DNA from: Pontederia crassipes
Taxonomy: Eukaryota; Streptophyta; Magnoliopsida; Commelinales; Pontederiaceae
Direction: 5' to 3'
Assembly: GCA_030549335.1 (NCBI GenBank)
Contig: CM060195.1
Location: 43,964,991 to 44,028,990, forward strand
DNA length: 64,000 bases
Within the stretch, counting starts at the first letter, position 1, and each line of letters begins with the position of its first letter. This document shows positions 53,172-64,000 of the stretch, in pieces. The translations under genes were made by a program, and so were the position numbers. The notes beneath the pieces were generated by a model, which saw only the letters and a program-made list of their open reading frames with translations, did not search any database and had not been told where the DNA came from.

Positions 53172-55043
53172 TTCTTGCAAAAGAAGTTGCATGATTTGCC
53201 AATTAATGAGGTGAACAACTTACATGTTGCCAAACTTGGATCGAAGAAATCATTAGTAATTTTCTCTAGATATTTAATGAATCCAAATATCTAACAAAGA
53301 TATTTATTGAACAAGAGAGTAATTCAGAAGAGTGCTCAAAGTAATTTTGATAAGTGTGATTTTACTATACTATTTTATTTGACATATGATTAATATTAAA
53401 GTTGCTATATGAAAGGGGAACTCTTGTGTACATTGAAAAAAAATAGAAGTTTATATGAATTCTCAGCATTTTTTTAATAATTTTATAGCTTAGAATTTAA
53501 GAAGGAGATAGATAGCAAAATTTTTGCAAGTAATATTTTCATTAGTTATTATTTTGTACTATTTGAATATGTCTCTAATCTTTTACAATTACTTTGTCGC
53601 ATCAATGTTGACAAAGAATCTATTTGTATATGTGACTAGTAAAAAAGTTATTTCATTTGAATGATTGTATTATGTGCATAGATACCTATGATTAAGAAAT
53701 GAAGATAATGCTTAAACAAGGTTGCAGGGATAGGGGAAAGAAGATTCCCATGTCTAGTACCCTTTTATTTTTTTTAAAATATTTAAAATATGAGCCATTG
53801 CTAGAACATGTGAATGTGATGGATTGCATGCAAATTTTGATTGAGACAATAATTTTGGAAGGAAGTTTCATAATAGTAAGGACATTAATAATAACATTCC
53901 AAAATTTCATGTCAAATGTCTTTTTTGTATCATTCTTGAGGATGATTTTTTCTTCTATCTTTTATCATAAAATGAACAATTTCTTGGGCTAAAGATATGT
54001 TGTCCTGTATAGTTTTGCTAGACACAAAAACATGTTGGACAAAATCTATAAGACCAAAAAATAATGCTTGACTTTGTTAACCAAGAATTTAGCTATAGAC
54101 ATATAAATGACATTATATATGGAAATAGACCTTCATAGAGACTAACTTATTATTATATTCTTTGAAATAAAAGTAAGAAGTGTGTTGGAAGACAAAAAAC
54201 TTAAGGATATGATTTGAAAGAATAGTTATATGTCTTTGATAACGTTCACACCTATGATGACCTAATAGTTGTTGTAAGATTTGTGTGAATAAATATTAAC
54301 AAATACTGTTTATTTCACAGTATATTGAAACATATAAGTCATAGCCTCTTAATATTATAAAAAAAATACTCTAGGACCTAAAAGTATTTCAAAAACATTA
54401 AAATAAATCCTTTCATTAAAAAAACGTAAGAAGAAAAATATATTAATATATTTTTTATATTAAGAATTATTCATTTTATCTTTTTTGCCTATCAATAGTC
54501 ATGCCCGAACAAGAAAAAAACACAAAATAATTCATTATATCCCTATGGAGGATAAGTTGTGACTAATTTGTTCAGGACGACGACCTCCTAGTCATATATG
54601 AATGGATCATGCACTCTAGAATTTATCAATATTTATCATTTAGGACTTGTTTGGATTGAGAGCTTTGAAGGAGTGGAGTATACATTCTATTTTGATAATT
54701 TTTTTATATTAGTTGGGAGGCATAGGATAGAGTAGCTAAGCTTTAATAACACCATATTTTCAATTCCACTAAATCGATGAAATGAGAAGGAATTAATAAT
54801 TTTAAACCAAATTATTCATTCTTTCTCCTTGTCTTTCTTCCTCTCTCTTTTCTCTTATCTCTACCGTTAATCTTGCTTATTGGTAAATAAATATTTTAAC
54901 AAAATAATTTTTACTCTATTTTTATTTCTCATATTTTATTTTTCTAAATATATGGACAAAATAGTTATAAATAATAAATAATATAATAAAATATAGGTCA
55001 AACAAAAATAGAAAATAAAAAAGAATTAAGTAATAAAGAACCA

Positions 55044-55231
55044 ACAACAACAACAACAAAGCCTTATCCCACTAGGTGGGGTCGGCTACATGGATCATAC
55101 GACGTCATTCCGCTCATTCGTTGATCCATGTTCATGAAATTCGACAGGGTTTTACGCTGGCTGTCGAGGCCTAACACAACCCTCATCCTTTATCCGGGCT
55201 TGGGACCGACTATAAAACATAGGCGGAGTTA
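55044..55231 (-). mobile_element. Au-type SINE, copy 1
   Basis: 188 bp, flanked by the 13-bp target duplication TAATAAAGAACCA (55031-55043 and 55232-55244). Read on the minus strand it has a tRNA-like 5' end with a B-box-like GGTCCCAAGCCC, the conserved body with CATGTAGCCGACCCCACCTA, and a (TTG)n 3' tail. These match the plant Au SINE family as I remember it. Confidence 0.88.
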
Positions 55232-55379
55232 TAATAAAGAACCATATGATAAATATTTATTAGTCATTAAATATTATAAATAGTTTAATATATAATAAAT
55301 GATAAAAATGAATTTTTCAAAAAAAAAACTTTTATTACCCCATTCCACATCTTTTATAGTTTATTGTATTTATATTTCA

Positions 55380-57040: not shown

Positions 57041-57292
57041 TTAAGGATGCAACGAATGGTGCTGCGGATCTGGTCCGCCGGGGCTCTGCCTCATGGACGC
57101 GCCGTAAGACGCAGCGCCGCTCTCCCTCCTCCTGTGGTCTCCTCCTCCGACAGCAACCAATTCAATATCTTCGGCTCTGCTCTCCAATGCCATGCGATCC
57201 ATAAGGCGGGCGCGGGCGTTTGCAGCGGAGGAAATCAGTATCAGTATCACGCATAAGAGAAGGCTCAACTGGAAGCTCTTAACGGCCACCAT
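57041..57292 (-). CDS. CLE: CLE signalling prepropeptide
   Basis: Intronless 83-codon frame. Residues 1-26 form a signal peptide (FQLSLLLCVILILISSAANA), followed by a charged variable region and the CLE motif RQSPGGPDPQHH at residues 68-79, then SLHP. The Ser-Pro at motif positions 3-4 and GGPDP core resemble the RLSPGGPDPRHH class of Arabidopsis CLE1-7. The predicted role is a secreted ligand for CLV1/BAM-type receptors. The C-terminal GGPDPQHHSL is shared with the CLE gene at 47642-47920, which lies in the same orientation about 9 kb away. It is more GC-rich than its surroundings. Confidence 0.92.
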   Translation of the reverse strand: MVAVKSFQLSLLLCVILILISSAANARARLMDRMALESRAEDIELVAVGGGDHRRRESGAASYGASMRQSPGGPDPQHHSLHP

Positions 57293-57390
57293 CGCTTCCT
57301 TCCCTTTTTCTGTTGATCCACTACCAGAAATTATCTGTACGATATCTGCACTGCTGCTGCTGCAACTTCTTCTTGCATATCTGAACCCAA

Positions 57391-57396
57391 TTTATA
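57391..57396 (-). promoter_or_regulatory. TATA box of the second CLE gene
   Basis: The minus strand reads CCTATAAATTGG here, about 100 bp upstream of the start codon at 57292. Confidence 0.65.
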
Positions 57397-60047: not shown

Positions 60048-63000
60048 TCACTCTGGGAGCAGCGGTAACCTGGTCACACCATTTTGAGAATACAGTGAAT
60101 CATCAGAACTGCTAAAATCTTTGCTGTCAATGTCAATGATTTTATCAACCCGCTCAGCCACATTCTTCTGTTTAATGCCAGATTGAAAGGGAAGGACTCT
60201 TACACATACATTGGGTTCCTCGCCGACAATCTCCCATAGTAGCTTGTATCTCTCAATATGTTCTATCTGAATAGAAATGAGATTTGGTGGCCTGGGAAGT
60301 AGCTGAACAGGTTCTCCTCGGGGAATCACAACATGTTCAATGGCCAATCTTGCCTCCTGCCATGAATAATCAGATTCTATTACTCAATGCAAACACCATT
60401 AATGTGGACAGACAAAATCATGCACAATACGATGTCATTGTTTGAAAGAAAATATGATAAATAAAGTTCATCGGGATATCTTAGATATTCTACCTCTAGA
60501 GCATCAGCTTCTTGTGAGGAAACAATTCGATCTTCAGCTTCAAAAGCTCTAGATCCATTTGGGTGTTCAACTACTAGGGCGCGCATGGCCCTTATGATTT
60601 GAACCAATGAATTTGTCTGAGGAAGAAACATTTTACATCAATGACAACACAACATGAAAATAACTCCAAGAATACAGTGGTTTATACCTTAGTCACAAAG
60701 ATTGGTATCTCACGAGATCTCGCAACTGCATGAATATGAGGGTTCTTTTTGAGCTTTGATTGTAAAGCAAGAAATGCAGCAGCCTCACTCATATTATTAG
60801 TTATTTCAATAGTCCCGTCCATTCCTAGCTGTTTAAGTGCTTCCTGAACACTTGTCTCCATGATCTAGAACAACTGTTCAATTTATAAGTTTCAAAATAA
60901 ATCTCTCTACATCAACTATGCTCCATGTGCTTATCACAATACATGTTGATAAAAAGAATAATTATGCAAACAAAAACAAAAAAACAAGGTAATAATACTT
61001 AAAATCTAGTGATATACAACAAATATTTTTTCCAGATTACAAATGGAAGGCTCATGAGCCTAGTACAAAAAAAAAAAAATGAAAGATAACTTAAAAATAA
61101 GAGGACATATAAGTCTCATTGATGGAAATTGAACTAAGCATCAATGAATTGAGTGATGAGTCATTACATCACACCCTTGTTCCTGTCAATAAATGAGATT
61201 TTCATTCCTTTGTGAAAAAAATAACAGAACTTCAATTCTAATTTAAACTCACAAGTCACAATTGAAACTAGTAGTTCTTACATTGCTTAGAAGGACCTAA
61301 CATGCACTCATTGTAGCATTTGTTCCTTTCGAGATAAAATATGGCTAGATTAGTCTTTTCATCACTTAAGATAATATTGGCCCAAGAGAAATGATTATCT
61401 CCTCAAAAGATATAAGAATTGCATTCCTAGATCATACTAAACTTTATCATTATTGTATTAACAACAAGCAATCAAGAATGAGTCTACACGAGTATGATTT
61501 ACAGAAAGAAAAAAGAAATATACAACTTCATGAAAAGTATTATGTTATTTTCTGTTACTATGATGCAGGGAAAAAAGTCCTGAGCAAAAATACATTGGAT
61601 TTAAGCTTCTTTTAGGGATAATGAGATCTGAGCTACATAATACATTCAAGATCCTGAGGAAGAAGGCAATTGGATGAACAAGATGGAAGATCAAGCAAAA
61701 CAACCATTTTGAGGAAGAAGGAAGCTTCATGCTGGGATCATGAAATATGGAAAGAAAAAACCATGACACTTGTATCTTGCATGATCTATCATCTAATAGT
61801 AGGAGATGACATTTCTATTCCTTCCAAATTCATTTGTATCTTGATAAATGACACTTATAATATATTATCTTAAAATAAATAGAGCAGAATCATTGCATCA
61901 CTTGGAAACTATACACTCATACTTTTTTCCTCTAAAAAAATCATCTAATACATCAAAGTAGAGTAGGAATCACATTAGCTTTACTCTCTAATGTTTCTTA
62001 CATCTACTAGAGTTGTTCGAACAAAAAGACACTTAGGTGATTACCTAGTGCGTAATCAAGATAAACATAGAATATGATAGCATGATGGATGTTCCAATTA
62101 GCCAATTAGCTTATACAAGAGGATGAAATCGATCAATAGAAAGAAGAAAACAATGTAAAGAGAAGCATCTTTATAAAAGATCAACAACACAATCATTCTC
62201 ATGAAAGAAATACTCATACCAAGCTGAAGAGATGCACTAGTTCTTACCCCATAAACAAAGAGTTTGAATGCTTCCCTAACATCATGAGGCTTATCTGCTT
62301 GCCTTTGGATTTGTTTTGTTTGGGGATCAGAAACATCGTCAGACAATTTATCATCAAGTCTGACTGAATGATCATCAAACTTGACATTGTCTTGTTCCCA
62401 AGAGAAATGACTAGAAGAATACTCCATCCCAGATTGAAGATTCTCGTTGACATGTCCCGGAACCGACTTGCGAATTTCATAATTTGGAGATCGTCCTATG
62501 TTAAAAAAGACAACAAAGTCATGCTTGAACAGAGTAATTAAGGTACAAATCTGCTTCAACCAGGGTACACAATCTGTTGACTCTAGTGCCAATGATATCA
62601 TAATTGACTGGGAAACAATAAAAAGCAGCCGCTTCATTCAAAGTGAGACAATCTGCTGAATAAAGTGCAAAGTAAGGAGATAACCTGAAAGCAAAGCATC
62701 CACTGTTGATTCAAGAGATCGATGGACTCGTATTTCAGTCTTCGAGACAATTTCTGCACCACAAGTAAATGTTGTCGGTAACTCCGCCTATGTTTTACAG
62801 CCGGTCCCAAGCCCGGATAAAGGAGGAGGGTTGTGTTAGGCTCCGACAGCCAGCGTAAAATCCTGTCGAATCTTATGAACATGGATCAATGAATATATGT
62901 CATCGTATGATCCATGTAGCCGATCCCACCTAGTGGGATAAAGCTTTGTTGTTGTTGTTGTAAGTAAATGTTGACGGTCCTTTTCGTTCGCGTACTGTCT

Positions 63001-64000
63001 TTTGCCCACCTCTTCTGATAGCCTCTTCATCACCTAATGTAACACTCTTTTATCCAGGGAAAAATGCAGAAAATATTAGTCCAAGAGGAATTAGACGGTC
63101 AAGATGGATCAGAATATTTTTTTTGAAAGAAGGATCAGAATATAAAATGTCAAATTCATAGTTCCATCGAAGTAAATAGTAGTCAAATTTATATTTCTCT
63201 CTCATTCAAAATTTGAGCCACTTTTCATTACATGCTTTCTTGGATGGCACGAGACTGAAGAACAGAAACATACTTGTATTCCTCCAACAAGCATTTCCAG
63301 AGAGGGATTCATTATCAGATTCTCTATTGCCACTCCATGAGCAGTGGCAACAAGTTGGATGCCTCGTTGTGCAATGGTGCTAGCTGCCATTGCTTCAAGT
63401 CGTGTTCCAATTTCATCAATCACAATTACTTGAGGCATATGATATTCAACTGCTTCAATTAACACCTGGCAAACAAGCATAAATAAAAGCATAGCCACCA
63501 AACATCAAGATTTCAAGCTCTGCATGGGCTTTGATTTCATCTAGATATTACAAACGTTCAAATTTGAAAAGAATTGATAATTCACCATATAGAAAAAAGA
63601 GTGCAGTAACGCATGTGTGATGTTTTCAGCATGAAGTCCTCTAATCTTCTCAAATTGGCATGTTAATTTTTTCCCAACTACTGTATGACTGCACCTAAGA
63701 GGAAAGCTATAGCTAGTCCACAAGACTCAGTAGCTCATTTTATTCTCTTCTGGATAGAGGTCAAAGATGGTCCAAAGAACGAAATGAGACAAGTACAAAG
63801 TAAAACAACTAACTTCAAAATTTTAAAGCTTACCTTATGCGGCATTTCAGGATTAGGCACTTGCAATCTGCGAACACTTCCAATCCCAGCATGAGGAATA
63901 TCACCATCTCCACCTATTTCATTAGACGTGTCCACAATAACGACTCTTCTCTTATAATCATCAGCAAGCATGCGAGCTATTTCTCTGCTTGAATAAGCAA
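60048..64000 (-). CDS. Ycf45/SPD1-type P-loop ATPase, 3' part, SINE-interrupted
   Basis: Partial gene; the 5' end, including Walker A, lies beyond 64000. Exons in order: >64000-63834, 63465-63274, 63046-62685, 62495-62248, 60864-60688, 60616-60494, 60356-60048, with GT-AG introns and consistent phases. The first exon reads [20 protein letters not shown], then [19 protein letters not shown]; the next has the Walker B-like VIVIDEIGT and [10 protein letters not shown]. This matches the Ycf45 / stage III sporulation AA-like ATPases, whose plant member SPD1 acts in plastid development. The C-terminal exon resembles the family's R3H region, but the R-x-x-x-H pair is not visible. Exon 63046-62685 contains a 187-bp SINE that brings an in-frame TAG at 62930-62932. 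Without the SINE and one copy of its target duplication the exon is open and in phase, so this allele probably encodes a truncated protein unless the insert is removed or skipped. Confidence 0.85.
62775..62961 (+). mobile_element. Au-type SINE, copy 2, inside a coding exon
   Basis: 187 bp, plus orientation (antisense to the host gene), flanked by the 12-bp target duplication AAGTAAATGTTG (62763-62774 and 62962-62973). The 5' part includes CCGGTCCCAAGCCCGG and the 3' end is (TTG)n. It is highly similar to copy 1 at 55044-55231, which lies in the opposite orientation. Confidence 0.93.

Follow-up and report, generated by a model that had tools for sequence, protein, structure and literature searches.

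The window analysed here is a stretch of 64,000 nucleotides of the Pontederia crassipes genome (C13:43964991-44028990, in a 1.13-Gb genome of 43 contigs). It contains most of a gene predicted to encode a SpoIIIAA/Ycf45-type ATPase, in which a short retroelement interrupts coding exon 5. The gene lies on the minus strand, starts past the window end and finishes at 60048. Exon 1 (65358-64963 in window numbering) and exon 2 (64873-64659) fall outside the window end; exon 3 (63834..63984) and exon 4 (63274..63465) are open with both splice sites intact. Exon 5 (62685..63046) measures 362 nt with the insertion, and its limits, set by the splice borders and by comparison with a second copy of the gene on contig C14, agree exactly with those given in an earlier reading of the letters alone (the sequence-only reading). 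Exon 6 (62248..62495), exon 7 (60688..60864), which matches Pfam PF25516, and exon 8 (60494..60616) are open; exon 9 (60048..60356) contains the stop codon and is 6 nt longer than in C14, in frame. The intact second copy for which the sequence-only reading had suggested a genome search was found on C14: its nine exons joined into an open protein of 655 amino acids, and its counterpart of exon 5 is 163 nt long (C14 10075218-10075380).

The C14 protein matched Pfam Spore_III_AA (PF19568) with 52.9 bits at a cut-off of 27 and also carried the PTPase-like domain PF25516. A TIGR02858 match of 70.8 bits lay below the equivalog cut-off of 281.3. Comparison with solved structures gave P-loop matches alone, to Clp, midasin and similar proteins, and these play no part in the assignment. 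The ATPase core and the family profile match point to an ATPase of the SpoIIIAA/Ycf45 type. Presumably the gene is kin to Arabidopsis SEEDLING PLASTID DEVELOPMENT1 (SPD1) and to Ycf45; the SPD1, Ycf45 and SpoIIIAA ATPases would have the core in common with the gene here. In the accessible parts of the papers that cite it, SPD1 appears merely as a seedling plastid gene. Further members of the family were found in this genome as pairs on C7/C8 and C11/C12, the latter with two loci (C11a/C12a and C11b/C12b). With a 169-amino-acid core as query, 80 bacterial relatives were kept of 286, and the core was 62-69% identical to them. Exon 5 could be aligned in 80/80 of these relatives at a mean identity of 52% (exons 2-4: 65-76%). 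Exon 5 is therefore not optional in the family, and the check named in the sequence-only reading, an alignment in which relatives lack the exon, came out in favour of its presence.

Exon 5 is 199 nt longer on C13 than on C14, which equals a 182-bp element plus a 17-bp target duplication. The element (62780..62961, plus strand) is antisense to the gene and ends in a (TTG)n tail; its limits follow from the empty site on C14, which holds a single target copy. The two copies of the duplication (62763..62779 and 62962..62978, plus strand) differ by one mismatch, and the perfect 12-bp duplication reported earlier is the perfect part of these 17 bp. Read in the direction of the gene, 28 native codons and 10 element-derived codons precede an in-frame TAG (62932-62930, minus strand) at codon 39 of exon 5, just where the sequence-only reading had put it. 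A genome search gave 43 other matches, 41 to the element part and two to the C14 partner. The search and the empty site confirm that the SINE-like insertion (SINE, short interspersed nuclear element) is real and above chance. Since the C14 copy is open and without the insertion, the insertion postdates the split of the C13 and C14 copies. Compared with the majority of 26 copies, the window copy differed at 8 of 164 sites; two of its eight variant letters were private, and each of the other six was shared with between 3 and 11 further copies. This pattern is consistent with an insertion younger than the chromosome-copy split. A second short copy of the element lies in the window at 55044-55231 (minus strand), is 89% identical to the first and has a 13-bp target duplication; the alignment to C14 is interrupted from 55029 to 55247 around it, as expected of an empty site.

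Contigs C1-C16 fall into eight pairs of neighbours whose two members differ in length; three of these pairs are backed by genes. Collinear blocks between C13 and C14 span window position 657 to 69,613. Along a profile of 250-base windows from 56000 to 66749, in which substitutions were counted without gaps, C13 and C14 differed by 1.2-6.4% in 39/43 windows and by 14-17% in the remaining four. Gene conversion, suggested by a 97%-identity BLAST piece that ends at the insertion, was dropped, as substitution levels were similar on both sides. We infer that the genome is polyploid, with C13 and C14 as homeologous chromosomes. The paired chromosomes and a divergence of merely ~3% substitutions, with synonymous divergence (Ks) at 0.05, would also suit a wide hybrid or a heterozygous diploid with C13 and C14 as its two haplotypes; the insertion would then be a loss-of-function allele. 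The lengths of paired contigs differ by 5 to 31%, and the element copies found in the window pair sit at different places; neither point is decisive, and we consider the haplotype explanation improbable.

The C13 gene copy carries lesions besides the insertion. The intron-1 acceptor reads AT in C13 and AG in C14, C7, C8, C11a and C12a; C11b and C12b have no intron-1 border of that kind. When the loss of this acceptor was followed through, use of the next AG, retention of the intron and skipping of exon 2 led to stops at codons 153, 135 and 140, respectively. Exon 3 carries Q252P and A241V and exon 4 carries N262Y (all in C14 numbering). Residue 252 is Q in 80/80 bacterial relatives and 6/6 paralogues, and Q252P is the strongest single case of relaxed constraint. 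At position 262 the paralogues have N, which for C7 and C8 was taken from the second match because the first ran into an intron. Of 23 amino-acid differences between the C13 and C14 copies, nine could be polarised by the paralogues, ~7 falling on C13 and 2 on C14, which are small numbers. Between the two gene copies, nonsynonymous divergence (Ka) was 0.0157 and Ks 0.050.

Several of these comparisons speak against decay of the C13 copy or lend it no help. Pairwise Ka/Ks of the gene copies was 0.31, and the decay is therefore not old. Bacterial residues side with C13 at positions 250 and 591, and the presence of N262 in 80/80 bacterial sequences is weightless because all 80 loci were found via a peptide pattern containing that N. 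The C13 copy is nonetheless most likely a dead homeologue, a pseudogene masked by the intact C14 copy, as judged from its lesions, and the "decaying paralogue" among the explanations offered in the sequence-only reading was right in substance. The same reading also offered skipping of the exon, or splicing around the element, either of which would leave the C13 gene functional. Such an outcome would draw on the open state of all other exons, on splice sites that are intact apart from the intron-1 acceptor, and on 14 frame-keeping, stop-free GT-AG pairs within exon 5. One weak pair (score -2.3), among the eight of 14 that were listed, would lose only ~8 native residues, whereas the six best-scoring listed pairs lose at least 19 residues, on a score built on assumed frequencies, and none of the eight listed pairs restores exon 5. 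With 163 nt in C14 and intron phases 0 and 1, skipping of exon 5 breaks the frame, and the lost intron-1 acceptor brings stops in all three outcomes tried. We therefore regard a functional C13 gene as very unlikely. The gene event is an ordinary loss of one copy after duplication, with a precise lesion.

The insertion of a short retroelement into an exon is likewise ordinary; the surprise is the element family. A coding-exon copy, called unusual in the sequence-only reading, is indeed uncommon, but such copies are known: the part of the wheat survey available lists 40 insertions of the Au SINE in genes, 35 intronic and 4 exonic (PMC5787218). Au, a short element of wheat and other seed plants, resembles the element here in being sometimes exonic, and the sequence-only reading had named the insertion a complete Au-type SINE. 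Its shortness, the lack of a long open reading frame (ORF), the target duplications and the high copy number fit that name. However, Au is entered with a (T)2-5 tail and without a partner among long interspersed nuclear elements (LINEs) in Table 2 of PMC3747384, as far as that source was available, and the same source lists TTG-type repeats for plant RTE LINEs. The element here has a (TTG)n tail that is also the tail of an RTE-type LINE, and a LINE-5' head with a match to the twister ribozyme. ARAGORN found no tRNA in the four loci L183, L150, L154 and L001, although degenerate boxes may escape it. A classical tRNA-derived Au SINE is thus hardly credible here.

The LINE in question belongs to the same genome. 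Two of the ten first-fetched loci with a twister match had a different body beyond 120 nt and, when extended, proved to be LINEs (L183 and L184) of ~3.2 kb, with the head of the element at their start and its tail with TTG repeats at their end. Positions 62780..62898 of the window (119 nt, plus strand) aligned to the LINE start, and 62897..62961 (plus strand), with the TTG repeats, is the LINE-3' part, of which 62897-62958 aligned. Against L183, the 5' part was 92.5% identical over 120 nt, one letter of which is flank, and the 3' part 90.3% identical over 62 nt; L184 has the same head and the same tail. The reverse-transcriptase domain RVT_1 was matched in L183 (E 1.7e-33) and twice in L184 (E 6.3e-15 and 5.3e-18), and an Exo_endo_phos match in L184 (E 0.00082) was under its cut-off. 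Length and TTG tail suggest that the LINE belongs to the RTE clade. It is abundant and uniform: a first look gave 1,425 candidates, and the 40 scored were each 96-100% identical to the query. As aligned, the short element consists of the two ends of this ~3.2-kb RTE-type LINE, with the body missing. Among 69 heads, seven of them from LINEs (L201 excluded), no fixed difference separated short copies from LINEs, and the LINE heads were not clustered beyond chance (155/1000 shuffles at least as high, with only seven LINE heads). One LINE head was identical to 11 short heads, and the ends of L184 were identical to two short copies across 162 nt.

The head of the window copy matched the type-P1 twister ribozyme (RF03160) at 62775..62834 (plus strand; 61.8 bits, E 1.2e-13) in a permissive Rfam scan. 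The match spans model positions 1-68 of 68, its first 5 nt are target DNA, and the predicted cut falls between 62779 and 62780, at the 5' border of the element. The U-A cleavage step is present in the window copy; twisters cleave at this step and stem P1 is dispensable, according to the part of a review available (PMC5408937). A full-length match to the model was obtained for the window copy and for 39/39 other loci scanned (the 20 loci L140-L159 and 19 more). Genome-wide, 62/62 scored places, drawn from 68,074 first-look candidates, had a twister match, 12 of them above the cut-off, and 0/14 control genomes were positive. Stem P2 was completely paired in 51/54 heads, and the base preceding AA was T in 36/54.

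Some features of these matches argue against a working ribozyme. The window match of 61.8 bits is below the Rfam gathering score of 67.2, no match in the window reached gathering level, and 38/39 of the other loci scanned were also below that score. Part of stem P1 falls in target DNA, and stem P3 contains an A-C mismatch in the window copy. In L005, L006 and L171, microRNA families of Rfam were likewise matched below their gathering scores; these matches were taken as repeat artefacts and show that matches under the gathering score need care. RF03160 matches with E-values of 2e-10 and 8.3e-13 are reported for an RNA of peach that cleaves in vitro, in the part of that paper available (PMC12542633).

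Target duplications were used to locate the start of the element. In a first set, 42 copies were examined, with duplication ends permitted from -12 to +5, and 30 had a recognisable target duplication; in 28/30 its end lay at 0 to +3 nt, counted from the A that follows the predicted cut. In a second set, selected by twister score, 22 of 34 copies had a duplication and 11/22 fitted the cut. The other 11, which weigh against a start at the cut, stopped 1 to 11 nt ahead of it, mostly with T alone in between; this set is enriched for T-rich flanks because P1 enters the score. As a control, mismatched copy pairs reached the same duplication score in 14/170 cases. With the threshold raised to 13 this fell to 0/170, and 9/18 of the remaining strong duplications fitted the cut. 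A copy with a tandem head, L143, begins 7 nt off. The element usually starts at the predicted ribozyme cut, which would be in keeping with self-cleavage by a twister-like head.

Other irregularities were seen at the 5' ends. Five of the twister-selected copies (L196, L198, L207, L216 and L180) have extra T runs between duplication and head, which could stem from slippage or from untemplated addition. In five copies (L143, L144, L159, L160 and L167), 26 nt of the head start are repeated in tandem, perhaps as a trace of template jumping at the 5' end. Of these, L143 and L144 have their 5' flank in common, including an additional AGCCGGT ahead of the head, and differ in their 3' flanks. On C6 near 44.857 Mb, two element copies lie head to head (L006 1635-1754 and L171), with their twister matches facing each other.

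Between head and tail the copies differ. We defined the junction as the letters between fixed head and tail motifs; in the window copy it is TATATGT (62894..62900, plus strand), between the LINE-5' and LINE-3' parts, with a break point ambiguous by a few letters. The head measured 114 nt in 45/47 copies and the tail was constant in 46/46, with junctions of 0 to 40 nt between them. The first set, partly picked by similarity to the window copy, held 27 distinct junctions in 45 short copies. For the twister-score set, 48/62 places were fetched, comprising 34 short copies, 11 LINE-like copies, L193 and two others, with L173-L182 shared with the first set; here 28 distinct junctions were counted in 34 short copies. 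Individual joins lay elsewhere: ~18 nt into LINE-5' in L197, 35-37 nt into LINE-3' in L194 and L220, and inside the tail in L193. In L209 the head is joined to the LINE reverse-transcriptase region, and in L201 118 nt of head are followed by DNA unmatched to L183 or L184.

The junctions were compared with LINE ends taken from L183 and L184 only. Among the 34 of the twister-score set, 6 matched exactly; allowing one mismatch raised the count to 29, and allowing two raised it to 33, compared with shuffle means of 1.35, 3.1 and 6.6 (maximum 6 with one mismatch allowed). The corresponding counts for the first set were 11, 43 and 45 of 45. In many cases the single mismatch is G versus A in the final letter. 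Of the junctions of at least 9 nt, 21/22 fitted a LINE-to-LINE join when up to two mismatches were allowed (0.1 on average and 2 at most in shuffles). Sharing of a junction was similar in closely and distantly related copies: among 43 copies, 5/124 pairs with 0-2 substitutions elsewhere shared one, versus 16/405 pairs with 6-9. Some junctions recurred, such as TATGG in 3/34.

We then considered how such copies may arise. The twister would trim the LINE RNA to the 5' end of the element, and the two ends of the RNA would pair in a stem, which could close them into a loop. During target-primed reverse transcription, the enzyme would copy the tail and jump to the head near the stem tip, and this jump would omit the 3-kb body and give short copies with ever-new junctions. 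In the window copy, the LINE-5' and LINE-3' parts are predicted to pair in a stem with the junction at its tip (z -1.83). The 28 distinct junctions in 34 short copies suggest that many copies were made anew from LINE RNA via such a jump of the reverse transcriptase. Taken as a whole, we judge it likely that an element insertion marks a C13 pseudogene beside an intact C14 homeologue, and that this element, composed of LINE ends with a twister start and variable joins, originated by a reverse-transcriptase jump. On the further proposition that the short elements form no lineage, most insertions arising new from LINE RNA (with its twister 5' end, stem and jump) rather than from a SINE master gene, our confidence falls a little short of even, and we advance it tentatively.

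Three results tell against formation by jumping. Only 6/34 junctions matched L183 or L184 to the letter, and higher exact counts (43/45 and 28/34) rest on reference strings for which short copies were in part the source. The predicted hairpin is only mildly stable at its z of -1.83. An insertion common to both chromosome copies, in which the junction could be compared, was not found among the places looked up (L005, L007, C11b/C12b and the window pair), which leaves room for later junction change in inserted DNA. The partner site of L007 on C10 was empty, and the partner stretch of L005 on C14 aligned for merely 70 bases beside the insertion. In the window pair, C13 held two copies, whereas the C14 stretch held a single full copy and two fragments, none of them at a matching place. 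The paralogues C11b and C12b were seen to carry one short element each (L118 1599-1778 and L119 1874-2053), at different places and with apparently empty partner sites.

The short copies might instead be a single self-propagating SINE lineage, in which a long original junction loop lost different lengths, either round by round or once it had been inserted. The head and tail common to the short copies, the position of the junction inside the loop of the predicted hairpin, the recurrence of junctions such as TATGG and the absence of an orthologous control among the places looked up would all suit such a lineage. It accounts poorly for heads that show no fixed difference between short copies and LINEs, for the LINE head shared with 11 short copies and the 162 nt shared between L184 and two of them, and for joins that extend into LINE-5' (L197), LINE-3' (L194, L220), the tail (L193) or the reverse-transcriptase region (L209). 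On this evidence we think a single lineage rather unlikely. The clustering of both break points at the tip of one stem would also be expected if the body were cut from the LINE RNA at the 5'-3' stem and the ends sloppily rejoined before reverse transcription, with no enzyme jump. In 55 joins, however, two-letter junction overlaps were seen 23 times versus 9.9 expected of random break points. This excess fits template switching, though the count is inflated by popular junctions and typed reference strings. Cutting and rejoining of the RNA is, in our estimate, a doubtful origin.

Known systems share parts of this arrangement. As far as PMC3747384 was available, its Table 1 lists RTESINE1 and MAR4 (opossum, wallaby), Bov-A2 (ruminants) and RTE1-N1_LA (elephant) with a 5'-RTE/BovB head and the tail of an RTE/BovB LINE, and the window element fits this kind of mammalian short element with RTE 5' ends. 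There they are listed as families, and a twister head or copy-specific junctions go unmentioned in the part available. In the same source, the tobacco TS SINE and its partner RTE-1_STu have a (TTG)n tail in common, as element and LINE do here; the head of TS is a tRNA, whereas the head of the element here is the LINE's own 5' end. For LINEs of the RTE superfamily, a twister at the 5' end has been proposed to process the 5' end of the RNA, like here, in work cited as in preparation in the part of PMC7761336 available. That source speaks of RTE retrotransposons and 'truncated' twisters; here twisters also head short copies that lack the body, and the starts of the insertions were mapped against the cut. 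Among the entries listed by a literature search over titles and abstract openings, with subscription papers and preprints thinly covered, none spoke of a plant SINE with a twister or of copy-specific junctions.

A twister near the 5' border would be a simple answer to the defined start of short copies. SINE families are usually taken as descendants of a few master copies. If short RTE copies are mostly new at each insertion, their numbers would gauge LINE activity together with the frequency of the jump. Each junction would then mark a single event, and SINE-subfamily dating would fail for such copies.

Two other ORFs were recorded near the gene. One at 57041-57391 (minus strand) begins with a signal-like stretch and has RQSPGGPDPQHH at its C-terminus, which resembles the CLE peptide motif. 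The other is a conserved ORF upstream of the ATPase gene in the same orientation, past the window end (66246-65767 in window numbering, minus strand). It reads LADITNLF-like in C13 and LVDITNLF-like in C14.

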